Virus record (IMG/VR): IMGVR_UViG_3300010354_000236
Coordinates: 1 to 37,055 of that record
Reading direction: 5' to 3' (one strand)
DNA from: a virus
Length of the DNA: 37,055 nt
Shown: positions 9,036 to 37,055 of the stretch, in pieces
Numbering within the stretch: position 1 is the stretch's first letter
Layout: every line of letters begins with the position of its first letter
Position numbers and translations under genes: made by a program
The notes under the pieces: model-generated
Databases searched by the model: none
The model's input: the letters and a program-made list of their open reading frames with translations, nothing else
What the model was told of the DNA's origin: nothing

Positions 9036-10847
9036 TTAATTTGGTATTTTTATTAGCTTATTATACTCTGGCAAATACAAGTATTCAATATCGCTTCTTA
9101 CAAGAGTACTTATAGCGTCGTCTAATGTTTCTACTAAAGGATCTCCACCTAGATTAAAGCTGGTGTTGAACAGAATAGGAATTCCTGTTTTTTCGTGAAA
9201 CGCTTTGATTAGCTGGTAAAAATGATAATTTTGTTCTTCTGTAACTGTTTGTATTCTACAAGTACCGTCCACATGAATAATACTTGGAATTTTTTCCGCT
9301 ACACCTGGTTGACAATTAACAGCATACATCATATGGGGGCTTTGATCCATTCCTCTTAAATCAAACCAATCATGAACATATTCCTGTAGTATAGTTCCTG
9401 CGAATGGTCTAAAATATTCCCTGCGTTTTACAGAGTTTACGAAGTCTTTACCATCAGGAAAAGTAGGGTTAAACAGTATACTTCTGTTACCCAATGCTCT
9501 AGGACCGTTTTCACTTTGTCCTTGAAAAATACTAACAATATTTTTTTCCACTAGCAGATTTACAATGTCTTCTTTAGTAGCATCAATAACTTCGCCGCCA
9601 GCATATCCTGCCTTTTCTATAATTTGTCTTTCTGTATAGGTATATTTTGGTCCTAAATAGAGTGTATCTAATTTTTGTATCTCTTTACTTTGAGTTACAC
9701 CGTGCCAAAACAATAACGCAGCACCCATCGCTGTACCTGCGTCATTACTAATGGGTTCTACGTAAATTTCTATACCTTCTTTTTTCAGGTGTTCTAAATA
9801 ATAGTAGTTAGCTACACAGTTTAATCCGTATCCGCCGCTTATTACTACTTTCTTTTTTCCTGTCATTTCAACTGCTTTACGTATTAATCGTAAAACTTGT
9901 TCTTGTGTCTGTGTTTGAACAGCGTATGCAAGATCTCTTCTGTTTTCTAACAGTGTTACATCAACATCTCTATCTTCAGGTTCTTCGCACAAAAAATCGT
10001 AAACATTTTTATTAACAAATGCGCCATTTGGATAGTTAGGGATAACTAAATTTCTATTAGATAACGGAACTTTGGTAGTATTATCAAATAATTTTGGAAT
10101 TTTGTTATTTTCTTTTCCGTACGGAAATAACCCCATTGTTTTGCCTGCTTCAATTCCGCTAAATCCGCAGTACTCTGTAACCGCTTCATAAATTTTAACA
10201 ATGCCTGAAACATCGGTGAGTACTGCTTCGTGAAATTGTCCTGGTTCATCAAATCCGTCCGACTCTAATTGATCGTACATTTGATTAACTATAGGATCTC
10301 TAGTACCGTAATGTTTATATAAAGTTTTAAAATTAGCCGGGTACCCACAATCGATTATACTTTCCGTTTCCCAGATGGTCATAGGAGTATTACCATACTG
10401 AATCTGAATAAATGTTCCTGCTCCGTCTACGATTACACTTACAGCATCGTCCCACCCGCTGCGATAAAAGGCACAGGCACTATGAAGTTTATGATGTATA
10501 TGACTTAAATCGATTACTTGTGGATGATTATGTAGATTAGCTCTTCTCTCAATTAAATTCAATTTTCTAGCTAGTCCAGTATAAACGTCGTCTCCAGTGT
10601 AGTCTACATGTCCTGCTGTTTCTTTTAATTTTTGAGTATGTGCTACTATTAGATAATCAATTTTATCAGTATATTCTAGTATTTTTATCATACTAGCATA
10701 TGGTCCGCCGTCGTATTTTTGACGACTTAATCTTTCTTCTTCTATGCTAAAGACGATTTCTCCGTCTTTTAATAAGCATACTCCAGCATTATGACCTCTT
10801 GCTATAGCAGCGATCCATCCTGTTTTTAAATTTATATTTGACATCAT
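9036..10847 (-). CDS. Carbamoyltransferase, NodU/CmcH/TobZ family
   Basis: A full-length 603-residue member of the O-carbamoyltransferase family, which moves a carbamoyl group from carbamoyl phosphate to a hydroxyl (sugar or antibiotic) through a carbamoyl-adenylate. The N-terminus has the expected G-H-N-A-G and E-E-E-R-L-S-R stretches (18-42). A His cluster H116/H118/H119/H122 and D141 in VDGAGT match the metal-binding part of the Kae1-like domain, with a further Asp in SNDAGTAMGAA (D369). ISGGYGLNCVAN lies at 337-348. The C-terminal YrdC-like part has GQSENGPRALGNRSIL (443-458), K-R-R-E-x-F-R-P-F-A (474-483) and ILFNTSFNLGGDPLVET (558-574). Two Met codons open the gene, preceded by AGGAAAA; the start overlaps the stop of the glycosyltransferase gene by four bases, so the two are translationally coupled. 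The acceptor is unknown; a sugar made or attached by its neighbour is the simplest guess. Confidence 0.93.
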   Translation of the reverse strand: MMSNINLKTGWIAAIARGHNAGVCLLKDGEIVFSIEEERLSRQKYDGGPYASMIKILEYTDKIDYLIVAHTQKLKETAGHVDYTGDDVYTGLARKLNLIERRANLHNHPQVIDLSHIHHKLHSACAFYRSGWDDAVSVIVDGAGTFIQIQYGNTPMTIWETESIIDCGYPANFKTLYKHYGTRDPIVNQMYDQLESDGFDEPGQFHEAVLTDVSGIVKIYEAVTEYCGFSGIEAGKTMGLFPYGKENNKIPKLFDNTTKVPLSNRNLVIPNYPNGAFVNKNVYDFLCEEPEDRDVDVTLLENRRDLAYAVQTQTQEQVLRLIRKAVEMTGKKKVVISGGYGLNCVANYYYLEHLKKEGIEIYVEPISNDAGTAMGAALLFWHGVTQSKEIQKLDTLYLGPKYTYTERQIIEKAGYAGGEVIDATKEDIVNLLVEKNIVSIFQGQSENGPRALGNRSILFNPTFPDGKDFVNSVKRREYFRPFAGTILQEYVHDWFDLRGMDQSPHMMYAVNCQPGVAEKIPSIIHVDGTCRIQTVTEEQNYHFYQLIKAFHEKTGIPILFNTSFNLGGDPLVETLDDAISTLVRSDIEYLYLPEYNKLIKIPN

Positions 10848-11779
10848 TTTTCCTGTTTACCTAAAATTGTATCTATAACATAGTCGTGAATAGCTGGAGT
10901 CATAGTCATAATGTTTTCATGTTTTCTATCTACACGTTCATCCTGAGTAATTCTTATTGGGCTATATTCTCTAGTATCTTCTCCCATATCTAAAATATTA
11001 AAAGTAGGACACTCTGGATAACTTACATTAATAGGAAAAGTTGATCCAAAAACAACTGTCGAAGGTTTGTTCATAGCATAAGCTAAATGTTGCCCTACGC
11101 TATCGCACCCAAAAAAGTGATCCGAATACTTAATAATAGCTGCCCATTGTCTTAGTCCTGTATTTTCAGGAGCAGCAACGTCATCCTTATATTTTTCCTC
11201 TCTTAGATCCAGTTTAATTTCACTCATCATTATAACACCAAATCCGTTTTCCTGTAGTTTTCTAATTAACACTTTGGTGTCTTTATATTCTATACTCCTA
11301 CTTGTAGGATCTACAAAACTTTCATCTATATATTGTATTCCTCTGCCAAATGGCTGCATGACAATAGTTTTATCTTTTTTTAAAGTTTTTTTAATTTCTG
11401 CTACAACATGTCTACCTGTTAGTAGTTCTTCTTTACTTAAAAACAAATTAGGTCTAGGTAGTTCTCTTACACCTTGCTTATTGATTTCAATATCGAACGC
11501 TTGTGACAAGTTACATTTTTGATTATAATATTCCCATACTCTATATGGTTCTGGGCTAATAACATCCCTGTCTTTGATTTTTTCTTTGAAAAGATTTTTA
11601 TGCCAAACGTCATAGGTTCTATCGTCTAGCGTAGGATGTCCTTTAAACAAATCCGTACCTCCTTCACATACTATGACGAAATCTTTATCACCGGATTCTT
11701 TTTCGTATTGTTCTAAAGCAGGGATAGAACAAATTACTCTTCCTGCTCCACCGTTAATAAAAAAAGCTTTTGATCTCAT
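10844..11779 (-). CDS. Glycosyltransferase family 9 (heptosyltransferase)-like protein
   Basis: A 311-residue protein with the features of the GT-B, ADP-heptose:LPS heptosyltransferase group: an N-terminal G-G-A-G-R-V-I-C-S-I-P-A-L (10-22) in place of the usual G-D-x-I-x-x-x-P-A-L, an M-Q-P-F-G-R-G segment opening the second half (141-147), and at 224-245 the donor-site pattern G-C-D-S-V-G-Q-H-L-A-Y-A with K-P-S and V-V-F-G. It probably adds a sugar to a surface glycan, but the donor and acceptor cannot be read. ACGGAG precedes the ATG, just after a strong hairpin with a T-run. The stop overlaps the carbamoyltransferase start, so the pair forms one unit. GT9 assignment rests mainly on the C-terminal motif; the N-terminal half is divergent. 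Confidence 0.78.
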   Translation of the reverse strand: MRSKAFFINGGAGRVICSIPALEQYEKESGDKDFVIVCEGGTDLFKGHPTLDDRTYDVWHKNLFKEKIKDRDVISPEPYRVWEYYNQKCNLSQAFDIEINKQGVRELPRPNLFLSKEELLTGRHVVAEIKKTLKKDKTIVMQPFGRGIQYIDESFVDPTSRSIEYKDTKVLIRKLQENGFGVIMMSEIKLDLREEKYKDDVAAPENTGLRQWAAIIKYSDHFFGCDSVGQHLAYAMNKPSTVVFGSTFPINVSYPECPTFNILDMGEDTREYSPIRITQDERVDRKHENIMTMTPAIHDYVIDTILGKQEK

Positions 11780-11858: not shown

Positions 11859-12491
11859 TTAGTAATATTTTGGAGGATTCGCTGGGAATGGTATTTTCCA
11901 ATGATCTACATCTGAATAAGTTGTTGCTAAATTGTTTAACCAATCTCTATATTCTTCTAAAGCGGCACGCTCGCTATCAGTATAATCATTATCCACTAAC
12001 GATTGAGTAATAAGATTCGCTGCTTTTTTAGATCCTTCGAATACACTTTCTTTGGTTACTGCGTGTTCTCTAAAACGAGGAGTGGTAAATTCTCCATTTC
12101 TATAGAACATATCTTGTCCGTAATAATTTTGATTAATAGCACCACCGGCCCAAGTATATGTATATGTTCCTCTATTATTTGATAACTGCTCTACATAATC
12201 AGGAATTGGATCATGCTCGTATGTTCCTGTCAAGTATGCTGCTTCAAATGTTTTTTCTTTAGCATCTATTACAATAAACTCAGTTTCTGGATCATCGTCG
12301 ACTAAATTTGGCAATTCTAATTCGCCTTCAGTTTCTCCTGATCTAGCAACATATCTAATTTCTCCGCTTGGAGTATGTACACACAATGCTAGATATCTAG
12401 GACCTAGATAAGTTGCCTGTATAGTTTTGTTTAAATTAGTTGTTGTTTTATACGGTTCGTCTGATAATTTTACCGTAAAAAATTTACGCAT
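11859..12491 (-). CDS. Possible tail-fibre assembly chaperone (210 aa)
   Basis: I do not recognise the family with certainty. The N-terminal 120 residues are beta-rich and acidic. The C-terminal third is helical (TDSERAALEEYRDWLNNLAT, 171-190) and ends in W-K-I-P-F-P-A-N-P-P (198-207). An acidic helix with Y-R-x-W-L followed by a short aromatic and proline-rich tail resembles the C-terminus of phage tail-fibre assembly chaperones, and the gene lies directly downstream of three adhesin-like genes, where such chaperones usually sit. There is one Cys (C37), in sharp contrast to its neighbours. GTAGGAG precedes the ATG. Alternatively it could be a minor virion protein. Confidence 0.5.
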   Translation of the reverse strand: MRKFFTVKLSDEPYKTTTNLNKTIQATYLGPRYLALCVHTPSGEIRYVARSGETEGELELPNLVDDDPETEFIVIDAKEKTFEAAYLTGTYEHDPIPDYVEQLSNNRGTYTYTWAGGAINQNYYGQDMFYRNGEFTTPRFREHAVTKESVFEGSKKAANLITQSLVDNDYTDSERAALEEYRDWLNNLATTYSDVDHWKIPFPANPPKYY

Positions 12492-12506: not shown

Positions 12507-13496
12507 TTATGTAAACCATCTTATTCTTACTGCGCCCTGACCGCCTCTATATCCGTTATCTCTTACATCACCGCAATATGCGCCTCCTGGTGCTCCCCAA
12601 CCGTATGGTACATAAGGAATACAACCAGTTGATTCATAACACGCACAAATACGATCAGAACGCCATGTATATGGGTGCGGAGAACCTTTAGTTCCGTTGC
12701 GACTAGTACTTAGTCCTGTAATAAATCCGTGTAGTCCTTGTCCTGGAATAGGTGCTTCCGTAGCATCGTCAGCAAACTGATAGCTTATGTATGGGGTTCC
12801 TGTACAACCCCAAACTCCTGATGGTCCTGGAACATGTTGTGTATAACAGCAACGACCGGCTGCTGTAGGACAAGAACAACTGAATGTCACACATCCTATA
12901 CCACCACAACAATTGATATCACCACCTACTGCACTAGCAATTGTACCAAAACTAGAAGCGTTACATACAGTGCCCATACCATTGCCAAAACCATTATTAG
13001 AACCGCAATATCCTAACGCTCTAAAACAACAATAGCCGCCGCAGCCGCCGTCAGTTCCGCATGTACTACATCCAGCACGACCGCCTTGAGCACAGATACA
13101 TCCATTAGTTCCATTACCAAACCAACAAACACAAGTAGCTTCAGAACATCCTCTGAATCCAAAAGCATCTGCATTACCGCAGCTAAATCCAATAGTACCA
13201 GTTACATAACATCCACTAGCCACACAAAAACATTTACGAGCATATGCTCCAGCATTTCCAGGTAGACTCCAGCCACAACAGCACATACGACTACTACTAC
13301 CGCCTGCTCCCCAAACTTCCAATACTACACATCCTGTTCCGGGTGCTCTCCAACAAAAACCACCGCAAAAATTAGTTCGTACATTACCTGGACTGAATAC
13401 AAAAATCCGTCCTTGCTCAAGATTATTTTCAGAATGATCGCCTTCCCATCCTGACTGAGCTCTCTGTTTTACTAGTTCTGTTAAATTAGTTGGCAT
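12507..13496 (-). CDS. Cysteine- and glycine-rich adhesin-like protein, copy 3 (329 aa)
   Basis: The last of three tandem paralogs. I count 34 Cys in 329 residues, nearly all after residue 43. The N-terminal 40 residues are Cys-free and end with the shared L-E-x-G-x-I and N-V-R-T elements. Then come V-L-E-V-W-G-A-G-G-S, C-C-C-G, L-P-G-N-A-G-A-Y-A-R-K, F-R-G-C-S, G-C-I-C-A-Q-G-G, and near the end C-A-C-Y-E-x-x-G-C followed by V-R-D-x-x-x-R-G-G-x-G-A-V-R-I. The W-G-A-G-G opening and G-G-x-G-A-V-R-I ending match glycine-rich domains of phage tail proteins; the cysteines occupy what are usually Gly or Ser positions. No C-x2-C zinc-finger pattern and no signal peptide were seen. The start overlaps the previous stop (TAATG). 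Receptor binding is inferred. Confidence 0.7.
   Translation of the reverse strand: MPTNLTELVKQRAQSGWEGDHSENNLEQGRIFVFSPGNVRTNFCGGFCWRAPGTGCVVLEVWGAGGSSSRMCCCGWSLPGNAGAYARKCFCVASGCYVTGTIGFSCGNADAFGFRGCSEATCVCWFGNGTNGCICAQGGRAGCSTCGTDGGCGGYCCFRALGYCGSNNGFGNGMGTVCNASSFGTIASAVGGDINCCGGIGCVTFSCSCPTAAGRCCYTQHVPGPSGVWGCTGTPYISYQFADDATEAPIPGQGLHGFITGLSTSRNGTKGSPHPYTWRSDRICACYESTGCIPYVPYGWGAPGGAYCGDVRDNGYRGGQGAVRIRWFT
13222..13262 (-). repeat. 41-bp perfect repeat shared by two Cys-rich genes (copy a)
   Basis: Identical to 14226-14266 over 41 bases; codes for the P-G-N-A-G-A-Y-A-R-K-C-F-C-V segment in both proteins. This stretch is far more conserved than the rest of the two genes, which suggests recent exchange or strong constraint. 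Confidence 0.85.
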
Positions 13497-14491
13497 TATG
13501 CTTGACTCGCAATAAACTTAATTCTAATAGCACCTGGGCCTCCTCTAGTAGCATGATCTCTTACACCAGCACAAGGACTAGGAGCCATACCAGGCCATCC
13601 TGGAGGATACCATGATATACAGCCTTGTGCTTCATAGCATCCGCAACTACGCCCGCCGGTCCAACATTTACTTTCTGTAGGAATACCCTGCTGTGGGTTT
13701 CGACTCGCTGAATTTAGAGCATGAATATACTGCATATGTCCTTGTCCGGACCAGTTACTAAATTCATTATCGTTTTCAGTTCCGAATTGTAATAGTGCGC
13801 CGCCTTCTGAAAAATATCCAGCAGGTCCTTGAACAAAATATACTTGGCTACATACACAGTTTGGAACACAGCCGTAAAATCCTGCGCAACTGAAGCCACC
13901 AAAACAGTTCACATCTCCACCATAAGCTTGGGCGCAGCAGTTAGCAATAGTTACACCATTGGCTCCTGCTCCAAAATTACATACTACACCGCAGTTACTA
14001 TTAATGATAGTACTACAATATCCGAAAAATGTAAAACAGCAATATAGACTTGTTCCAGTAGAGCATACGCTAGCTCCGCCTCTGCCACCTTGAGCACAAA
14101 TACATCCGCTTGTACCATTGCCGAACCAACAAACCATGGTAGGTTCCGAACATCCTCTGAAACATAATGCGCTAGAATTACCGCAACTAAATCCAATACA
14201 TCCTGTTACTGAGCAACCTCTAGTAACACAAAAACATTTACGAGCATATGCTCCAGCATTTCCAGGCAAACCGCCGCCGCAGCAGCACATTTGTGCTCCT
14301 GATCCACCCGCACCCCATACTTCTAATACTACACATCCGCAGCAAGGAGCTTGCCAACACATGCAGCAAAACTGTTTAGTTCTCACGTTAGGTTCAGAAA
14401 AAATCCAAATCTTACCTTTTTCAAGCATTTCTTCATCAAAAAATGCTTGACGCAATTCTTCTCTAACTAATTGTGTAAATGACGTTGGCAT
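13496..14491 (-). CDS. Cysteine- and glycine-rich adhesin-like protein, copy 2 (331 aa)
   Basis: The middle paralog. I count 37 Cys in 331 residues. It has a helical Cys-free N-terminus (L-V-R-E-E-L-R-Q-A-F-F-D-E-E), L-E-K-G-K-I-W-I-F, then V-L-E-V-W-G-A-G-G-S-G, C-C-C-G-G-G-L-P-G-N, C-F-R-G-C-S, G-C-I-C-A-Q-G-G-R-G-G and a tail of G-C-Y-E-A-Q-G-C, P-P-G-W, V-R-D and G-A-I-R-I-K-F-I. Its order of motifs and Cys spacing follow copies 1 and 3, while the loops between them differ. It begins four bases after the stop of copy 1, without a strong ribosome-binding site, so coupling is likely. Surface display on the tail with disulfide cross-links is inferred, not shown. Confidence 0.7.
   Translation of the reverse strand: MPTSFTQLVREELRQAFFDEEMLEKGKIWIFSEPNVRTKQFCCMCWQAPCCGCVVLEVWGAGGSGAQMCCCGGGLPGNAGAYARKCFCVTRGCSVTGCIGFSCGNSSALCFRGCSEPTMVCWFGNGTSGCICAQGGRGGASVCSTGTSLYCCFTFFGYCSTIINSNCGVVCNFGAGANGVTIANCCAQAYGGDVNCFGGFSCAGFYGCVPNCVCSQVYFVQGPAGYFSEGGALLQFGTENDNEFSNWSGQGHMQYIHALNSASRNPQQGIPTESKCWTGGRSCGCYEAQGCISWYPPGWPGMAPSPCAGVRDHATRGGPGAIRIKFIASQA
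14226..14266 (-). repeat. 41-bp perfect repeat shared by two Cys-rich genes (copy b)
   Basis: Partner of 13222-13262, 1004 bases away; same encoded peptide in the middle paralog. Confidence 0.85.
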
Positions 14492-14494
14492 TCA

Positions 14495-15715
14495 TTAACT
14501 CGCTATAAACTTAATTCTAACTGCGGCATTGCCGCCTTTATGTCCTGTATCGCGTACATTGGCGCATACAACAGCAAAGAATGCTCCATGCCCTGGTGGT
14601 ACATAAGCATAACATCCATTATCTTCGTAACATCCGCAACTACCGCCAAATCCCCAACAATATGCCCAAGGTACACCTTGGCTTGGGAATCTACTAGCAG
14701 CACTAATCATAAAATTGTGTTGATGGTCGCCGCTACCGGCAAAGTTTCCATATTCGTTACTAGCTTCAAACGATACAGCATGTACCACACCATCTTGACT
14801 AATCATTCCCGCAGGTCCTGGAATATAAGCAGTGATACAACAATCATTATTAGCCTGACAGTTAAAAAATGCTACACAACTAAAGTGTCCGCAACAATTA
14901 ATATCGCCACCAAATCCTCTAGCTATATGATTTCTTCCGCCTGTTCTATAATTGCCGCCACACATTTCAGCTACACAGCATGGTGCTCCCCAGCAGTTAG
15001 CATAACAACATTGTGGATACAGACTGCTTGGAGTACATCCGCACATATATACACAGTGCGAGTTTTGTACATTACAGATCAATCCGCAGTTTTCATTATT
15101 AAATTTTGTTCCGCAGAACCATTGGCAAGTAAAACAACACCAAGCACTTTCGCCTGTAGTACATACACTTACACCGCCCATGCCTCCCTGAGCGCATAAA
15201 CATCCATCGAATTGTGTATGACATTGATATCTAAACATACAACCACTACAAGCCACGCCGCCACCGCCGGCACCATAGCTAGTAAGATCACAAGATTCAG
15301 GAAAATTACTTAAATTTTGATTACCGCATAGACCTACTGAATAGCAAACTTGTGATGGTCCAGAACATCCTCTAAAACATAAATTACTTTCTCGACAAGC
15401 GTGATGTGCTACTCCACAAACGAATGTGCAACAAGTTTGTTTAGCACTAATACAAAATGCTTTTCTCACATATGCGCCGGCATTACCTGGAAGTCCGTAT
15501 CCGCAGCAACACATTCTCGCACTGCTGCCGCCAGCTCCCCACATATCTATAACTACAATACCAGCACGTCCGGTAGGAGGACACCAGCAAAAGCAGTTAG
15601 GTACTTGATTAGTATTAGGTTGAAATCCCCAAATTTGTCCTTTTTCTAAATTGAACTCACTGGGATTCAGTGATTCAGATTTAGAACCTACTAAAGATTT
15701 AAGTGATGAAGGCAT
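14495..15715 (-). CDS. Cysteine- and glycine-rich adhesin-like protein, copy 1 (406 aa)
   Basis: First and longest of the three paralogs. I count 48 Cys in 406 residues (nearly 12%). The N-terminal 40 residues are Cys-free and contain L-E-K-G-Q-I-W-G-F. The shared framework follows: V-V-I-D-M-W-G-A-G-G-S, C-C-C-G-Y-G-L-P-G-N-A-G-A-Y, C-F-R-G-C-S, C-L-C-A-Q-G-G-M-G-G, F-G-G-D-I-N-C-C-G, I-P-G-P-A-G, C-G-C-Y-E-D-N-G-C, P-P-G-H-G, V-R-D and A-A-V-R-I-K-F-I. Its extra length is two loop expansions, before the C-L-C-A-Q-G-G element and between it and F-G-G-D-I-N. A DHQH cluster in the C-terminal third could bind metal, but that is speculative. TAGGAAA precedes the ATG. The size and motif order suit a variable receptor-binding tip on a conserved base. 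Confidence 0.7.
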   Translation of the reverse strand: MPSSLKSLVGSKSESLNPSEFNLEKGQIWGFQPNTNQVPNCFCWCPPTGRAGIVVIDMWGAGGSSARMCCCGYGLPGNAGAYVRKAFCISAKQTCCTFVCGVAHHACRESNLCFRGCSGPSQVCYSVGLCGNQNLSNFPESCDLTSYGAGGGGVACSGCMFRYQCHTQFDGCLCAQGGMGGVSVCTTGESAWCCFTCQWFCGTKFNNENCGLICNVQNSHCVYMCGCTPSSLYPQCCYANCWGAPCCVAEMCGGNYRTGGRNHIARGFGGDINCCGHFSCVAFFNCQANNDCCITAYIPGPAGMISQDGVVHAVSFEASNEYGNFAGSGDHQHNFMISAASRFPSQGVPWAYCWGFGGSCGCYEDNGCYAYVPPGHGAFFAVVCANVRDTGHKGGNAAVRIKFIAS

Positions 15716-15731
15716 TCAAATTTCCTAATTA

Positions 15732-16064
15732 TTAAGCTGAGCCAACGATCCAACCATATGTTGCGCCGCTGTAAATCAATGTAACTATCGCACCGTTGGT
15801 ATCAATGGTCAAATCATCAGCAACATTCTGAATCTTAGCTCCATTTCTAGCAACTGTAATATTATTGGTAGCTGCTGTAGCTCCAATATCTATGATTTGA
15901 ATTGTATCATTAACTAATAAACTACCACTGGCAGGCAAAGTAATTGTTAATGCGCCTGCTGCTGTAGTCGCTAAAATTCTATCATTTACTAATGCGTTAT
16001 AGTTAGTAGAGATTTCACGGAATGTTGCTCCTGCTGTGCCCGTTGTTGTAATATATCTTCCCAT
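15732..16064 (-). CDS. Small beta-rich virion protein (110 aa)
   Basis: A compact protein of alternating hydrophobic and Thr/Asn/Gly residues (ALTITLPASG, NDTIQIIDIG, NNITVARNG, LIYSGATYGWIV), typical of a small beta domain as found on phage fibres. I recall similar small domains in marine phage tail regions, both alone and inside fibres. There is no Cys and no catalytic motif. AGGGGAAA precedes the ATG, and a CATAAATA late-promoter-like box lies about 20 bases upstream, so it probably starts the transcript that carries the Cys-rich genes. Decoration or fibre-tip role is inferred. Confidence 0.6.
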   Translation of the reverse strand: MGRYITTTGTAGATFREISTNYNALVNDRILATTAAGALTITLPASGSLLVNDTIQIIDIGATAATNNITVARNGAKIQNVADDLTIDTNGAIVTLIYSGATYGWIVGSA

Positions 16065-16082: not shown

Positions 16083-16090
16083 TATTTATG
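16083..16090 (-). promoter_or_regulatory. T4-type late promoter box, CATAAATA
   Basis: Reads CATAAATA on the minus strand, one base off the T4 late consensus TATAAATA. It overlaps the stop codon of the upstream 106-residue gene (TAA at 16088-16086) and lies about 20 bases before the ATG at 16064. Confidence 0.55.
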
Positions 16091-16406
16091 TTGTCGATGT
16101 TTCGATACCATACACCGCTGCTGTAACATTGGGTATAGATGACCAAACTACTACGTTTCTTGTTGCTTCTAAAACAATGCCGGTGCGCTCTAATACGCCT
16201 TTGGCTAAAATTTCTGTATCAAATTCTATATACTCAGCAGTTGTTGGTGTAGCTGTAGCAGACAAACCAATTCTTACATTAGCAGCTTGATTACTTCTAT
16301 TACAAACACTAATTGTAACAACTGAAAAAGTACTGGCTGGCACAGTATACACAGTAGTCAATGTTGCCACTGTTAAGTCGTTAGCGCCTAATCTTCCTGA
16401 TGCCAT
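16086..16406 (-). CDS. Small beta-rich virion protein (106 aa)
   Basis: A beta-sandwich-like small protein: V-Y-T-V-P-A-S-T, V-V-T-I-S-V-C-N-R-S, then I-E-F-D-T-E-I-L-A-K-G and a closing hydrophobic strand. The layout (strand with VCN or GCN, I-x-P-A or equivalent, D-T-E-x-I-L or E-K-L-I-L, a final strand) is shared with the 109- and 110-residue proteins encoded at 26524-26853 and 33949-34281, so the three look like distant paralogs. No enzyme motif. AAGGAAA precedes the ATG. It lies directly downstream of the 1891-residue spike, 17 bases away. Confidence 0.6.
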   Translation of the reverse strand: MASGRLGANDLTVATLTTVYTVPASTFSVVTISVCNRSNQAANVRIGLSATATPTTAEYIEFDTEILAKGVLERTGIVLEATRNVVVWSSIPNVTAAVYGIETSTT

Positions 16407-16423: not shown

Positions 16424-19400
16424 TTAACGGAATAAACTATATGCTAAAGCATAACCATCTACACCATCATTAAAATTCATTGTAGTATTTATGTTAATTT
16501 GAGCGCCGGTGGTAGTTGTAATAGTGTCGCCTGCTATATAAACAATACCAGCAGTCAAACTATTTACGTTCAAACTACTTGATCCACTACCAATTTGAGC
16601 ACTAATATACGCTTTAATAGCACGTTGAGTAGGTACTAGACTATCGGAATCAGCTGTGAAATAAGGATCAGTGCTAAATTCTGTAATTGTAGCACCTGTT
16701 CCTCCTAACGCCACACTACCTAATTGTAATTCTTGTAGACCAGCAATACTAAATGCTTCAGCATTCAAACTAGCAATACCAGTTGATTGTTCTACACTGA
16801 AAATATCGCCTACTCTAAAGTTACCATCTTGGTCTGTACTAGTGTAGAATACACGACCGCCTCCAAACTCGTTGGTTTCTTTTGTTGGGTCAGGATCTAT
16901 TAATGGATTACCAGGATAATTTGTATTAGTAAAATTACCTGTACCAATATCTAAGAAATCATGACCAGTTAAACGAACTTGACTATAACGAATTCTTATA
17001 GTAATGTCAGTTTCATGATCGGCGCTCTCTGCCATATCCCATCCAGGACTGATTTGAAGCACTGCTGTATATCTACTACCTTGAGGCAACAAGTTAGTAA
17101 CATTTACTAACTTATAATACACGTCATTTATACCGCTAAACTGAACATTTGATCCTGATCTAGGAATTTCTGTTAAATTCTTAACTGCGATAAATGTACC
17201 TGTTTGGTAAGTGTCTATGGTACCATTACCTACTACACTGGCTGTGGCTGTAGTATAGCCTGTTCCTCTATTACTAAAGTTAGGCTGAGCTAATACACCT
17301 ACTCCTTTACGAACTTCTGTGGCTGCTTCAACAGTATTATTTGGATCAACAATTGTTACAGCTGGTGCGCTCGAATAACCAGAACCTGGTTCAATAACTC
17401 GAATACTGCTAAGAACTTCATTAGTAACTAATGCTCTAGCGTAGGTTGTACATCCTGTAGCTACACTACTTGCTACAGTACCAGCAGCTCCTCTTTGTAC
17501 AGCTGACCAAATTCCAGATCTGTTACTATTACCAAAATCTATAGCACTATATCCGTTGGCACTAGCACTCATTGTGCGACTAGTCCAGTTAAAGCCATCC
17601 TCAGATGTTGCTGCGTCTGTAGATTGACTTACTGCGAAAAATAAACCTTGTCCATAGGAAACGTCGGTGTATGTAGCACTAGGTACAGTCATTGTACTCC
17701 ATGTGGTTCCATTTCTGCTGTACACTGCTGTGGTTAATGTTCCGCTACCAGGAAATGCTACAAACATATTTTTACCAAATGTGACTGATATCCAGTTTCC
17801 GCTAGTAATAGTTCGTGTAGTCCAACTTGTACCATTAGTAGAACTTGCTGCTGTTGTTCCACTAGCTGCTACTGCTACCCATATTCCGTTACCATATACT
17901 ACACTGTTCCAAGTTGCGCTAGGTAAACCGGACATCGCTATCCACGATGTACCGTCATTAGTACTATAAGCTGCTGTTGTAGTGGTTCCAATAATTACCC
18001 AACGACCATTTCCGTAGGCAATATTAGTATAAGTTCCCGCAGGTGCTGATCCTCCGGCACTCCATGTTGTGCCACCATCGGTACTAATTGAAGTAGTACC
18101 TGTAGCAGAAATCGCTATCCATCTTCCATTACCGTAAGCGACTTTGATTGCGGTAACACTGACAGTTCCTCCGGCGGTCCATGTAACACCGTCACTACTG
18201 TAACTACTAGTAGTTCCTGCTACTGCTACAAATCTTCCACCTGCTGCTGTTCCAGAGATATCAAATGTATTAACCCCGCCTGCTACCACTTTTGTAACTT
18301 TTACTGTAATATTATTCGCAGGAGTTACACCGCCTACATTTGCTCCTGCTATAGTAATTACATCATCGATTTTATAGTTTGATCCTGGCGTAGTACATGT
18401 CACTGTTGTATAGTAGCTGCCTGCCTTGACCACAGTAAATATTGCTCCTGTTCCTGAGCCTCCTGAAGATGCTACACTAGTATAAGTTGCGTTTAAATCT
18501 CCGAACGCTGAATCAACCCACGCAGCATTTTGAATAGTTCTGGCTGTTGAAGTAAATCCAGGACTTGTAAATGTTAACCTTGGCTCGATAATGTATGCTG
18601 TGGTTACATCTAAACTACTAGCTATAGTAGTACCAGCGTTAATGTGATCCCATCCACTTGTACCAGTAGACTCTTTGTAAATTGTTGCTACTTTACTTCC
18701 GCTATTGTATGATTGAATGTAACCATATTGTCCGACACCGGTTCCTGCGGTAATTAAAATTCTCATTCCAGTGTAAGCACTGCTGATAGCAGTATCTGTA
18801 GCTGCTAAAGTTATAGAAGTAGTGTTACCTGACTGAGCAGTATTTGAGATAGTCTTGTATCCTGCTCCTCCGATTCCACTAGAGTCTCCAAAATCTTTTA
18901 ATCTTATATAATATACACCGTTGTCTCTAAATTCTGGCGTAGCAGCAGCGTTCGCTCCTGGTCCGTTAAAAGTATAAGTAGCTGTACTGTAGTTAATACC
19001 AGCATTAGCATATTCTAATCTATATATTTGATCTACTGTATCTGTGAACACGCTTTCGACACTTGCTTCTACACTTCTATTATCAACTTTACCTAATATT
19101 GCTGTTTCAGTGATATCAATACCTTCACTCACACATCCGTAAGTACCATATGAGCTGTTACCATTTGTAGCACGAATTTTACCGCCATTCTCCGCTAGAT
19201 ATCCGATATGTCCATAGTATGAGAACACACTAACTAATTCAGCGCGACCTAAATTGGTAACCCACGCACCGATTCCATCACTTAGTACCTGTGTAAAATC
19301 GTTAGCAACAATACTGTCATTACCGCCATTATGAATATTACCGTCGACTTTCATTCCAATACAAGCTGTTCCAAAAGTTGTAACGTTTTGAACATATGGG

Positions 19401-22099
19401 CTTCTATGAGTAATCCAGGTACGATCGTCGTCTGGTCCCCAGCCTGGATCTAAACTAGTATACGCTCCTGCCGATGGTCTTCTTGTTCCGTATCCGTTAG
19501 GAGCTCCTAGAGTTCCGGTTAGACCAGCAGTTGTACAATTTCGTAGACCTGTTCCATTTCTCAGATAGAACATATCTTTATCAGTAGATCCGTTTACAGC
19601 ATTAACATACAATTTTGCTGCGGTAAGTGTTTTGTAATTACTGTTATAAATTATATCCCATTTAATAGCATCTACATATTCTCTAACATCTCTCTTACAA
19701 GCGTTTTCGTCATATGTTCCAGCATAAGCAGGATATGTTACATTGATATATGCTACTGCTTCTTCTGCTAAAAATTCTTTATTTTCTTCTAAAATGTTTA
19801 CTGCTCTATAATAGTTCTCGTCTGTACTCCAATAAGTTGTACCAGTCATTGTAGGAGGTGTGCCAGCAGAATTTACATAGTAATCTACATAATTTTTAGC
19901 AGCAGTAAACAAATTAGCCGCGGCTGTACCAGCACCTGCACTGCCTGCTGGTCTACTGGTAACTTGATTTAAAGGGTTTCCTGTGCTTTTTACGATGCTA
20001 ACATTTTGAACAATATTACTGGTAATGGCTGCTAGTCTAGTTAATGCTGCCATACTATATGTTACATCTCCAGAAGCAATTATCAATCCTGCTGGTTCAA
20101 TTCTAGTGGAACGTAATTCATCTCCTACTATAGCTGTAAGTGCTGGAACAACAATTGGTAAAATTTCGTAATATGTACCTGTTTTTACGCTTATAGTATA
20201 ATTTACTTGTTGTAAATCAAATACAGTTGTACTATCTTCAACTGCGTTGATTGCTGTTGTTAATGATCCAACTAAGCTAGTAGCTAGTGTACTAGCTTCT
20301 GCTTCTGGATTTTTAGTCGCATCTACTACTTGTGTTACTACACCTTGATATGGAGTGATTGAATATTCGGCAATAAGATCTTCAATTAAGGATAAAGCAA
20401 AATTTATAGCTGCGATTGTTTGTAATTTTTCGCCTGCTCCGAACACAGCTATTTCTTCGCCGTTGTAGATAGCAAAGTCTCTGATCTTTTTGTTGCCGCC
20501 ATGAGATATATCATAAACTATAGCATCAATAAGTACACCAATATCTCTTTCGCACTTAGCTGAATTATAAGTAAATCCGCCAGTAAATGGTGCGATAGGT
20601 CCTGCTACTTGAGCATTGACCCATGCTATAACTTCTTTTTGTATAAACTGTCTATTACGGGCAATTAAATTTGTAGCATCTGGATACAACATTCCTTTTT
20701 CAATTTGTTGTGTAGCATATTGAATAGTTTTAAAAGGTCTATCTATCGTTGATCCATAGTTCGGCCATGGATTGTCTTCCCCGGTAGTGCTGACATACAC
20801 TATACGATTTATAATGCCCCAATATGCCCATTCTGGTGCCGAATTACTACTAACTCTTAATACCTGGCCAGCTTCGCCGATTGGTAGTCTTGTTGGTCCA
20901 GCACCGCCATAGTAAACTAAGTCACCCTGAGTAGTCAGTACCGATAGTTCTGATCCTGCTGTGAACACATTCCAAAATGCGCCTACAGTATCGTTGTCAG
21001 GTCTATTATGTACACCGGAAGTATGGGGAGTAATACAGATATAACTGTTAGGACCATATTTTACTAAATCGCCTAACACATAGGATCTACTACCGTCCCA
21101 TGGACCTCTCCAAGAAGTACCAGAGTTTAGTTGCGCCCAGTATGTTGTATTGGGAGGAAGATTCGCTCCACTAGCTTCATGGTCAGCTACAGCTACATAG
21201 GTATAACCACCATATCTAATAACATTACCTACTCTATAAAAGTTTGGAGTTCCCCAAGAACCTTGATATTTAAATCCTGTAATATATAGATCCCAGTCAT
21301 CACTGTTACTAGTAGGAACCTGATTAGTATGATTAGTTTTACTAATGTATACATATCCGCCATAAGCTACAGTATCGCCTGGTTGATAAACTGCACTACT
21401 GTTCCATGTGTCGTTAAATTCTAAACCTTCAACAAATTGTTCCCAATTTGATTCTGCGAACGTAGCACTAGAAGTATGATAAGTTGTACAAATCCATAGA
21501 CCGGCACCATATTTTACAACGTCATTAATTTTATAACGTACACTAGCTGCGCTCCAAGATCCTAAATAATCTATACCTTTATGTAAAAAATCCCATTTAG
21601 CTTGATCTGCTTCTAAACCTAGAGTAGCTGTTGCTGCACTGGTATGCCCTTGGTTACAAATATATGTAATGCCACCGTATTTGACAATATCATTTACTTT
21701 ATATCTTGTGCTTGTAGCCCAATTTGTTTTCCAGTCAAATGTTTCAGCGAATAAATCCCATTTAGCTTGATCTGCTTCTAAACCTAGAGTAGCTGTTGCT
21801 GCACTGGTATGACTATCATTACAAATATAGATGTATCCTCCATATTTGACGATATCATTTAACTTGTAAAATGTGCTAGTAGACCAATTGCCCTTCCATT
21901 CTTGTCCGTCGGACATTTGGTTCCATCTAGTAGGTATATTTTCTAGGTCAGTATTAAAATCGGCTGCTGCTGTATGTCCAATTACACACAAATATGTTTT
22001 GCCGCCATAACGAATAACATCATCTTTTATGTATGTAGTGCTGGTTACCCATGCTCCTTTCCATACAAATCTAATTCTACCTAGATTAAACTCAGCCAT
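16424..22099 (-). CDS. Giant spike or fibre protein with CBM-like repeats, beta-helix and beta-propeller insert (1891 aa)
   Basis: Domains in order: seven repeats of 50-60 residues (1-380) with the pattern W-x-x-x-x-x-Y-x-x-x-D-x-V-x-Y-G-G-x-x-Y-x-C and often HTS, resembling carbohydrate-binding module 5/12; a right-handed beta-helix starting at V-Y-V-S-T-T-G-E-D (434-442); insert 1 (about 472-628) and insert 2 (about 675-840), each with the K-C-x-R-D or A-C-K-R-D module of the 2232-residue protein; further helix (841-1000); a G-S-N-Y ... V-G-G-V-T-P domain (1215-1270); six blades with Y-G-N-G-R-W and S-x-D-G-x-x-W (about 1285-1530); and a C-terminal region with RLTGHDFLDIGTGNF and FYTSTDQDGNFRVGD. 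Its first domain and C-terminus match the 1321-residue protein upstream. ACGGAG precedes the ATG. Glycan recognition, and possibly depolymerisation, is inferred; no catalytic residues were identified. Confidence 0.8.
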   Translation of the reverse strand: MAEFNLGRIRFVWKGAWVTSTTYIKDDVIRYGGKTYLCVIGHTAAADFNTDLENIPTRWNQMSDGQEWKGNWSTSTFYKLNDIVKYGGYIYICNDSHTSAATATLGLEADQAKWDLFAETFDWKTNWATSTRYKVNDIVKYGGITYICNQGHTSAATATLGLEADQAKWDFLHKGIDYLGSWSAASVRYKINDVVKYGAGLWICTTYHTSSATFAESNWEQFVEGLEFNDTWNSSAVYQPGDTVAYGGYVYISKTNHTNQVPTSNSDDWDLYITGFKYQGSWGTPNFYRVGNVIRYGGYTYVAVADHEASGANLPPNTTYWAQLNSGTSWRGPWDGSRSYVLGDLVKYGPNSYICITPHTSGVHNRPDNDTVGAFWNVFTAGSELSVLTTQGDLVYYGGAGPTRLPIGEAGQVLRVSSNSAPEWAYWGIINRIVYVSTTGEDNPWPNYGSTIDRPFKTIQYATQQIEKGMLYPDATNLIARNRQFIQKEVIAWVNAQVAGPIAPFTGGFTYNSAKCERDIGVLIDAIVYDISHGGNKKIRDFAIYNGEEIAVFGAGEKLQTIAAINFALSLIEDLIAEYSITPYQGVVTQVVDATKNPEAEASTLATSLVGSLTTAINAVEDSTTVFDLQQVNYTISVKTGTYYEILPIVVPALTAIVGDELRSTRIEPAGLIIASGDVTYSMAALTRLAAITSNIVQNVSIVKSTGNPLNQVTSRPAGSAGAGTAAANLFTAAKNYVDYYVNSAGTPPTMTGTTYWSTDENYYRAVNILEENKEFLAEEAVAYINVTYPAYAGTYDENACKRDVREYVDAIKWDIIYNSNYKTLTAAKLYVNAVNGSTDKDMFYLRNGTGLRNCTTAGLTGTLGAPNGYGTRRPSAGAYTSLDPGWGPDDDRTWITHRSPYVQNVTTFGTACIGMKVDGNIHNGGNDSIVANDFTQVLSDGIGAWVTNLGRAELVSVFSYYGHIGYLAENGGKIRATNGNSSYGTYGCVSEGIDITETAILGKVDNRSVEASVESVFTDTVDQIYRLEYANAGINYSTATYTFNGPGANAAATPEFRDNGVYYIRLKDFGDSSGIGGAGYKTISNTAQSGNTTSITLAATDTAISSAYTGMRILITAGTGVGQYGYIQSYNSGSKVATIYKESTGTSGWDHINAGTTIASSLDVTTAYIIEPRLTFTSPGFTSTARTIQNAAWVDSAFGDLNATYTSVASSGGSGTGAIFTVVKAGSYYTTVTCTTPGSNYKIDDVITIAGANVGGVTPANNITVKVTKVVAGGVNTFDISGTAAGGRFVAVAGTTSSYSSDGVTWTAGGTVSVTAIKVAYGNGRWIAISATGTTSISTDGGTTWSAGGSAPAGTYTNIAYGNGRWVIIGTTTTAAYSTNDGTSWIAMSGLPSATWNSVVYGNGIWVAVAASGTTAASSTNGTSWTTRTITSGNWISVTFGKNMFVAFPGSGTLTTAVYSRNGTTWSTMTVPSATYTDVSYGQGLFFAVSQSTDAATSEDGFNWTSRTMSASANGYSAIDFGNSNRSGIWSAVQRGAAGTVASSVATGCTTYARALVTNEVLSSIRVIEPGSGYSSAPAVTIVDPNNTVEAATEVRKGVGVLAQPNFSNRGTGYTTATASVVGNGTIDTYQTGTFIAVKNLTEIPRSGSNVQFSGINDVYYKLVNVTNLLPQGSRYTAVLQISPGWDMAESADHETDITIRIRYSQVRLTGHDFLDIGTGNFTNTNYPGNPLIDPDPTKETNEFGGGRVFYTSTDQDGNFRVGDIFSVEQSTGIASLNAEAFSIAGLQELQLGSVALGGTGATITEFSTDPYFTADSDSLVPTQRAIKAYISAQIGSGSSSLNVNSLTAGIVYIAGDTITTTTGAQININTTMNFNDGVDGYALAYSLFR
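16931..16966 (-). repeat. 36-bp perfect repeat shared by the two spike genes (copy a)
   Basis: Identical to 22711-22746; encodes the T-G-H-D-F-L-D-I-G-T-G-N-F segment in the C-terminal region of both spike paralogs. Confidence 0.85.
17480..18247 (-). other. Beta-propeller-like domain inserted in the 1891-residue spike
   Basis: Six repeats of about 40 residues with F/W-V-A-V, S-x-D-G-x-x-W and Y-G-N-G, as in sialidase/BNR-type propellers. The paralogous 1321-residue spike has no such segment: it goes directly from its EPRVVFDEP region to the G-S-G-Y-T-V-A-P-T-V element that follows the propeller here. No sialidase catalytic Arg triad or F-R-I-P element was seen, so a binding role is more likely. 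Confidence 0.68.
21588..21646 (-). repeat. 59-bp perfect direct repeat inside a CBM-like array (copy a)
   Basis: Identical over 59 bases to 21753-21811. Spacing is 165 bases, exactly 55 codons, which is one repeat unit of the array. It encodes the H-T-S-A-A-T-A-T-L-G-L-E-A-D-Q-A-K-W-D segment of repeat 3. Confidence 0.9.
21753..21811 (-). repeat. 59-bp perfect direct repeat inside a CBM-like array (copy b)
   Basis: Partner of 21588-21646; encodes the same segment in repeat 2 of the 1891-residue protein. Other repeats of the array are well diverged. Confidence 0.9.
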
Positions 22100-35886: not shown

Positions 35887-36498
35887 TTAGCTGAATGTTA
35901 GACCTGTTGTTGTAACAGTTCCTAGGTAGTCAGCTGCGTTACCTAGAGAGCTTGCTGTATTGCTTAGTTCGACATATCCATAACGAGTCATAAAGCTTAC
36001 GACTGGTTCGAATGTGCTTGGATCTAGAACAACACCGCTGCTCATTAATGGAATGTATGGGCAATAGAAAGCAGCCGCATCACTCTCGCTTGTACCTTTG
36101 TAACCAACTAGAACTGTGTCGTTCTGAGCATATGTGTTAACATATACTTTCATCGCACTGTTTAGTGTACCAACAAACTTAGTGTTAGTTGGGGCTTCGA
36201 ATGTACCTTCTGTTGTACGAGCAAACGCACTGGTTGTTGCGCTCTGTAATACTGTTAGTACTGTTGGGCTAACAACTGCCCAGTTACCAGCACCACGACG
36301 TGTACGCTGAGCGATTCTGTTAGCAACACGATTGATCTGAACAGCTAAAGCAGCATGTTCGTCACCAACGAATGTAGCAGTACCAGAAACAGCAGTTTGG
36401 TCATACGCTTCTTGGTTTTGTGTACCAGCTAATGTAGCAAGAGATAATAGGATCTCTTGATCAATTTCAGCTGTGATTTCTTGTGCTAAAGCAGCCAT
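35887..36498 (-). CDS. gp23: Major capsid protein gp23, C-terminal part (after in-frame TAA)
   Basis: 203 residues that continue the gp23 sequence after a stop codon: MAALAQEITAEIDQEIL matches the conserved gp23 segment that normally follows G-I-D-I-E-A-E-I without a break. Later gp23-like features are R-G-A-G-N-W-A-V-V-S-P-T-V (about 68-80), V-Y-V-N-T-Y-A-Q-N-D, V-G-Y-K-G-T-S-E-S-D-A-A-A-F-Y-C-P-Y-I-P-L and P-V-V-S-F-M-T-R-Y-G-Y. The frame is the same as the upstream part; only TAA and ATC separate the two (36504-36499). The ATG at 36498 may therefore be an ordinary internal Met, and it has no good ribosome-binding site. Either the gene is intact in the real phage and the TAA is an error, or the capsid protein is made in two pieces or by read-through. 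Confidence 0.9.
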   Translation of the reverse strand: MAALAQEITAEIDQEILLSLATLAGTQNQEAYDQTAVSGTATFVGDEHAALAVQINRVANRIAQRTRRGAGNWAVVSPTVLTVLQSATTSAFARTTEGTFEAPTNTKFVGTLNSAMKVYVNTYAQNDTVLVGYKGTSESDAAAFYCPYIPLMSSGVVLDPSTFEPVVSFMTRYGYVELSNTASSLGNAADYLGTVTTTGLTFS

Positions 36499-36501
36499 GA
36501 T

Positions 36502-37055
36502 TTATGCTTCGATGTCAATGCCTTGTTGAGCTTGTGCATCTTGAGCAGCTTCAAATGTCCAGCGAGCACTTAGTTTACGTGTCTTCGCTTCGACTGTTTG
36601 CTTTAAGATCTGGATGCTTAAACGCTTACCAGCAGCACCTTCTAGAGTTGCTGTTGATGCAGCTGTGAAAGCAGCGCCATCGTTACCAGAATAACCTTCT
36701 GCGATCTTAAATGGACTTAGTGCTTCTACACCAGCGTTCGCACCGTATGTACCGCTTAGGGTATCTGCGTAACGAACACGTAGAGTATGAATCTGTCCAA
36801 CTGGTCCAGTCATTGGTTGTACACCAACTAATTCGTTAGCAATAACGGTTGGCATAACACGACGGATTACTGGAAGAATCACGCGGTTTAATGTTGCGAC
36901 GTTGCCGGCAGAAGTAGCACCACCTGAAGCATTCTCTGCGAGATACTTACGTGTATTCTCTAGAGTAGATGCCATTACAGATTTCTTTGTGCCTTGTAAG
37001 CCTTCTAATAGGGCTTCTTTTGTTTCTGCCCAACGGCTTGTTAGTAGTTCTGACA
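36502..37055 (-). CDS. gp23: Major capsid protein gp23, N-terminal part (start at or just beyond window edge, ends at in-frame TAA)
   Basis: The frame is open up to the window edge; the last readable codons give SELLTSRWAETKEALLEG before M-A-S-T-L-E-N, so the ATG at 36975 is internal. The edge bases read TG then TCA, so a true ATG start may lie one base outside. Recognisable gp23 parts: N-R-V-I-L-P-V-I-R-R-V-M-P, N-E-L-V-G-V-Q-P-M-T-G-P-V-G-Q-I and A-R-W-T-F-E-A-A-Q-D-A-Q-A-Q-Q-G-I-D-I-E-A, at which point a TAA (36504-36502) ends the frame. Y-L-A-E before N-A-S-G-G lies where the prohead protease cuts gp23 in relatives (L-x-E site), so removal of the N-terminal piece is inferred. With the downstream part the protein would be about 390 residues, short compared with T4 gp23 (521). 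Confidence 0.9.
   Translation of the reverse strand, partial: SELLTSRWAETKEALLEGLQGTKKSVMASTLENTRKYLAENASGGATSAGNVATLNRVILPVIRRVMPTVIANELVGVQPMTGPVGQIHTLRVRYADTLSGTYGANAGVEALSPFKIAEGYSGNDGAAFTAASTATLEGAAGKRLSIQILKQTVEAKTRKLSARWTFEAAQDAQAQQGIDIEA

Follow-up and report, generated by a model that had tools for sequence, protein, structure and literature searches.

Phage proteins are synthesised in a reducing cytoplasm. They normally contain about 1% cysteine (0.9% in T4), and a precedent for thiol chemistry in a contractile tail is the disulfide network of the Agrobacterium phage Milano, whose reduction is required for contraction (PMC10811340). In the cyanophage Pam3, the fibres are disulfide-linked to the baseplate (PMC10329688), and its fibre protein gp24, for which a resemblance to the ALK domain was also reported, docks through a helical N-terminal domain and further contains a TNF-like domain and a tip that recognises the receptor and is rich in glycine (39%) (PMC9608196). 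Here we describe three tandem genes (w3, w2 and w1, the trio) of the IMG/VR virus record IMGVR_UViG_3300010354_000236, positions 1 to 37,055 (the whole stretch of 37,055 nucleotides that was analysed, the window), whose products are very probably glycine-rich tail-fibre tip proteins. Milano structural proteins average 2.1% cysteine, far below the 10.3–11.8% of the trio, and the likeness to this tail, with its structural disulfides, is one of working only, with no homology claimed. The fold is known; what seems undescribed, as far as the searched literature shows, is the high cysteine content, how well it is conserved, the arrangement as a tandem trio and how widely this occurs. Cyanophage tail fibres rich in cysteine were not found described there (which does not prove their absence elsewhere).

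All three genes lie on the minus strand and encode putative cysteine-rich tail-fibre tip proteins: w3, the first gene (14495..15715), 406 amino acids with 48 cysteines (11.8%) and a cysteine-rich insertion; w2, the middle gene (13496..14491), 331 amino acids with 37 cysteines (11.2%); and w1, the third gene (12507..13496), 329 amino acids with 34 cysteines (10.3%). These numbers, recounted on the translations of the open reading frames (ORFs), are exactly those given by the initial annotation, which was made from the letters alone and had called such a density unusual. Indeed, 119 of the 1066 trio codons are cysteine codons, against about 30 expected from base composition, and cysteine ranges from 0 to 1.8% in the other long ORFs on the minus strand of the window. 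Glycine makes up 14–20% of the window proteins overall, and each contains 8–9 tryptophans. The gap between w3 and w2 is 3 bases, while the stop codon of w2 and the start codon of w1 have one base in common, spacing as in a co-translated operon. Clusters (MCCCG, CC and CxC) occupy equivalent aligned places in all three proteins, as had been noted for CCC and CC. The CCC motif, located in w1 in the loop after WGAGG, corresponds to residues 72-74 of w1 (13275..13283, minus strand), 69-71 of w2 (14279..14287, minus strand) and 69-71 of w3 (15503..15511, minus strand), and its column is invariant in the first 74 sequences collected and at least 98% conserved in 182. The proposed shared N-terminal part of about 40 residues is also borne out, since residues 1-40 are free of cysteine in all three proteins (the first is residue 44 in w1, 42 in w2 and 41 in w3) and a helix is predicted there at residues 5-16 of w2.

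Relatives were collected by a first scan of viral contigs (41 sequences) and then by a profile-guided scan (239 sequences), and they occur in many freshwater and marine phages. Among the 182 unique sequences over which conservation was counted, the median cysteine content is 9.9%, and 18 cysteine columns, with conserved glycine columns alongside and distributed over the entire domain, are at least 95% conserved, so the cysteines of homologs are not freely replaced. Beyond this core, about 30 further cysteine columns are gained and lost, mostly one at a time. The idea of fixed cysteine positions is thereby narrowed to the core columns. In the closest orthologues (74-86% identity to the window), 233 of 243 cysteines are kept, and 98 of these 233 codons (42%) have switched between TGT and TGC, which means that selection keeps the residue and leaves its codon free to drift. 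Judged from these codons, the cysteines are under purifying selection and, with ORFs that abut or overlap and a frame kept in orthologues, the reading frame of the trio is real. The cysteine-rich proteins also form a separate class in composition: among 686 plus-strand ORFs of at least 150 amino acids in 80 related loci, 208 had at least 5.5% cysteine, a single one had 3–5.5%, and the rest had a median of 0.5%.

The assignment to glycine-rich tail adhesins, already proposed from the sequence, is upheld by a chain of profiles and by a predicted fold. In the Pfam search, the window proteins matched no family and did not reach the cut-off of Gly_rich_2 (PF21722), and a PDB sequence profile search gave no match; w2 and w3 matched phrog_4205, of unknown function (E 8e-9 and 2e-7), and w1 only at 0.009. 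In profile-profile comparison, the window family matched a set of proteins from S-CAM1, S-CAM3, S-SSM7, Sf-FS3 and Syn9 (E 9e-22 over 259 columns), members of which match Gly_rich_2, with SXBG_00224 of S-CAM1 and SSSM7_116 passing the cut-off. The AlphaFold2 model of w2, the one protein modelled, has a predicted local distance difference test (pLDDT) of 77 and a predicted template-modelling score (pTM) of 0.78, with a beta-rich body after the helix. Its best PDB match is Pam3 gp24 (7YPX, 7YFW; E 5e-6, template-modelling score (TM) 0.39-0.49), the next being the Bxb1 tail tip and the ALK/LTK glycine-rich domain; viral fold matches include S-CAM3, P-SSM2 and Syn9 gp38. On this prediction, w2 would share with Pam3 gp24 the N-terminal helix, the TNF-like sandwich and the glycine-rich loops, and a gene for a probable chaperone likewise lies alongside; compared with the tip domain of Pam3, the window proteins are less rich in glycine and are packed with cysteine. 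Syn9 gp38, a Gly_rich_2 protein, has the same glycine-rich frame (22% glycine) but only 2 cysteines in 266 amino acids (0.8%), so the simplest reading is that a glycine-rich adhesin acquired cysteines; the comparison suggests this direction of change.

The closest named counterparts are found in cultured cyanophages. The trios of the marine Synechococcus phages S-CAM1 (SXBG_00224-226) and S-CAM3, represented by phrog_4205, resemble the window in having three tandem genes, 8-12% cysteine, the same neighbours and a CCC-like loop, and one member matches Gly_rich_2; identity is, however, about 30% or less (w3 against S-CAM1 reached only E 0.03 in a similarity search), and many cysteines are placed elsewhere. 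The proteins of S-SSM7 (SSSM7_114-116), Sf-FS3 (97-99) and P-SSM2 (PSSM2_304, _306) contain 9-12% cysteine and lie in a similar cassette with a chaperone-like gene and a carbamoyltransferase; they were not recovered by the window profile, S-SSM7 has CSC-N-RC where the window has CCC, and P-SSM2 has two copies against three in the window, S-CAM1, S-CAM3, S-SSM7 and Sf-FS3. Between the freshwater-type set and the marine S-SSM7, about 11 of 19 core cysteine positions coincide, in an alignment that is uncertain at such distance, which points to a shared ancestral cysteine frame. All five cultured-phage versions are annotated as hypothetical, and the present comparison would offer a name and a likely function for a fibre-tip cassette that is frequent among aquatic viral contigs. 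A widespread and ancient tip family with about ten times the usual cysteine raises the question of how a tailed phage produces so many thiols and what it uses them for, and since the cultured cyanophages S-CAM1, P-SSM2 and S-SSM7 carry the genes, it can be tested there.

We favour the reading, with a probability of about 55%, that the trio proteins are receptor-binding fibre tips whose glycine-rich loops are stapled by disulfides after lysis. The N-terminal segment with its short helix would dock to the fibre or trimerise, and it would be followed by the TNF-like beta-sandwich and then the glycine-rich loops. The putative chaperone encoded just downstream would help folding and assembly while the thiols are still reduced in the host cytoplasm; after lysis, oxidative pairing would staple the loops, and perhaps subunits too, giving a rigid tip that resists proteases and heat and lasts long in open water. 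Very robust binding proteins could be designed on such a template from nature. At the sequence level this reading is supported by the fold family, the gene context, the conservation and the ancient cysteine frame. Homology and gene position place the proteins in the virion, as far as we can infer, a receptor-binding role would follow the glycine-rich tips of the same fold, and the fold match would put the CCC loop at the distal tip. For the cysteines being mainly in disulfides, we see the odds as evenly balanced.

Several results weigh against this reading. Among 51 family members, only a single one approached Gly_rich_2 (E 0.014), and none of the window proteins did; the fold match of w2 is weak by its TM; and the cysteine-containing C-terminal part near residues 273-286 is poorly modelled. 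The CCC loop is nearly invariant in the 182 sequences, whereas the known gp38 and gp24 tips are hypervariable (in the gp38-type adhesins of S16, T2 and PP01, hypervariable distal loops sit on a conserved glycine stem), and simple disulfides seldom involve three cysteines in a row, an arrangement that could instead fit a metal. Co-occurrence and branch co-change of cysteines gave no convincing map of disulfide partners, the suggestive pairs (45-114, 121-202, 110-276 and 130-143) being unconvincing given the number of tests and the relatedness of sequences. Even and odd cysteine counts occur about equally often (48 and 41, respectively), and some thiols may therefore lack a partner or link subunits. 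An Erv/ALR thiol oxidase was not found in ten large relatives, in a search whose control was silent too, and glutaredoxin, present in 6 of 11 relatives, is common and hence uninformative. The parity and co-change statistics do not decide between disulfides, metal and interchain links.

One alternative is links between chains. Bonds through the cysteines might join the three paralogues to one another, or to the fibre, as a covalent heterotrimer in place of intrachain staples, and exactly three genes in 52 of 61 clearly internal loci, gene positions that fall in mostly separate clades, and trios recurring in the S-CAM and S-SSM7 lineages would all fit; however, nine loci with one copy and the two copies of P-SSM2 mean that three different chains are unnecessary, and we regard this arrangement as somewhat unlikely. 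Its fuller form, in which widespread aquatic T4-like phages carry a covalent heterotrimeric tip of three paralogous chains with about 100 cysteines, a disulfide-cast adhesin that would be assembled with reduced thiols in the cytosol and harden once the cell has lysed, is speculative and unlikely. Metal (Zn, Fe, Cu or an Fe-S cluster) could instead be bound, yielding metal-loaded tips that serve stability or lure a metal-uptake receptor of the host. Clusters such as CCC, CC and CxC are of the kind that typically binds metal, the 18 core columns hardly vary and odd cysteine numbers occur; on the other hand, these proteins of 329-406 amino acids, with their tryptophans and beta-rich predicted fold, are unlike the small, aromatic-free, cysteine-rich metallothioneins, no metal-binding family of Pfam or PHROG was matched, and accessory columns change mostly one by one, so we consider metal binding unlikely.

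That unpaired thiols serve as reagents or sensors at the host surface, with thiol-disulfide exchange triggering attachment or tail contraction, is suggested by the tail disulfides of Milano, which need reduction for contraction, and of Pam3 (PMC10811340, PMC10329688), and some cysteines lie within the putative receptor-binding loops. More than 30 cysteines per chain are far beyond the need of a switch, and conservation extends over the whole domain, which makes such a role very doubtful. Searches of phage records with tblastn (w2) and blastn (the trio) gave no match, and low-complexity masking or filtering may be responsible, perhaps in part; taken at face value, the tblastn result would fit an artefact of sequence, wrong frame or composition. 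The conserved frame and the 239 relatives speak against it, and synonymous switching of the cysteine codons in orthologues rules it out for practical purposes.

The nine single-copy loci (our L087, L089, L101, L104, L118, L119, L120, L123 and L124) also exclude the notion that three copies are always present. A tree built from 53 complete trios mostly separates the genes into clades by position (first, second or third), and the triplication is therefore old; one locus and the S-CAM1 trio group by genome instead, which suggests repeated triplication or gene conversion. Three single-copy loci that were looked at have different neighbours, and no chaperone-like gene was seen adjoining the cysteine-rich gene.

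The genes around the trio, all on the minus strand, resemble a tail-fibre cassette. Directly downstream, the product of 11859..12491 is probably a tail-fibre assembly chaperone (phrog_9740, E 3e-6), because its S-SSM7 and Sf-FS3 counterparts match Pfam Phage_tail_APC (PF16778) and the profile link to the set containing these members has E 4e-16; its C-terminal W-K-I-P-F-P is conserved in most loci. None of the 39 members of its family reached the Phage_tail_APC cut-off, and its confident model (pLDDT 96.6) matched no solved fold in PDB. Upstream of the trio are two conserved small tail-fibre-like proteins, of 110 amino acids (15732..16064; PHROG tail fibre and tail spike matches; counterparts in S-CAM1 and S-CAM3) and of 106 (16086..16406; phrog_11338 tail fibre, E 3e-9; counterparts in S-CAM1 and P-SSM2), and a large tail-fibre protein of 1891 amino acids (16424..22099; phrog_9851 tail fibre, E 1.5e-195), which is likely the shaft to which the tips attach. 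The same cassette holds a glycosyltransferase family 9-like protein (10844..11779; PF01075, E 9e-5), with a similar protein beside the cysteine-rich genes of P-SSM2, and a carbamoyltransferase (9036..10847; PF16861 and PF02543), 63% identical to SSSM7_121 of S-SSM7. The window follows the same plan as S-CAM1, S-CAM3 and P-SSM2, where the large fibre gene is followed by two small proteins, the cysteine-rich genes, a protein of 225-241 amino acids, a further protein and the carbamoyltransferase, except that in P-SSM2 the 225-241 type sits between its two cysteine-rich genes; the S-SSM7 cassette is similar, though it lacks the separate pair of small genes and includes an additional oxygenase-like gene.

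The glycosyltransferase-like protein and the carbamoyltransferase both accompany the cysteine-rich genes in the window and P-SSM2, and the carbamoyltransferase also does so in S-CAM1, S-CAM3 and S-SSM7; the targets of their modification might be the fibre tips or the surface of the host. An annotated cysteine dioxygenase occurs in the same cluster of P-SSM2 and S-SSM7, and in Sf-FS3 a prolyl 4-hydroxylase-like gene lies two genes past the trio, with a similar protein in S-SSM7 (dioxygenase and hydroxylase-like genes jointly at L149 17637-17993; L150 31368-31769 and 21658-22317; L151 5588-6220). Modification of the tips by these neighbours is possible. In the fibre region of Syn9, gp36 (L152 13856-14806) is a further protein of extreme glycine content, with 35% glycine and 8 cysteines.

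The window belongs to a large T4-like myovirus. The C-terminal part of its major head protein (35887-36498, minus strand) is 77% identical to that of the Sinorhizobium jumbo phage Phosso (469 kilobases) and 71-73% identical to those of PA5oct (Pseudomonas) and Vibrio phage 2.275.O. The trio family profile found no match in four isolated jumbo phages, these three and RAS14. A jumbo-like head against a cyanophage-like fibre cassette makes an exchange of cassettes between distant T4-like phages possible. Since the nearest head proteins are from jumbo phages of other hosts, and photosystem II genes are absent from the nine large relatives searched, the label cyanophage was not adopted, and the host need not be a cyanobacterium. 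The sole family match in bacterial and archaeal genomes was a contig of 15 kilobases (L046) in a metagenome-assembled genome of Euryarchaeota SAT205, probably a viral contig binned there. The T4-type head gene itself (35887-36975, minus strand) has an in-frame TAA at codon 158, which splits it into two same-frame ORFs (36502-36975 and 35887-36498) and may reflect a mistake in sequencing or assembly, or a gene that is disrupted.

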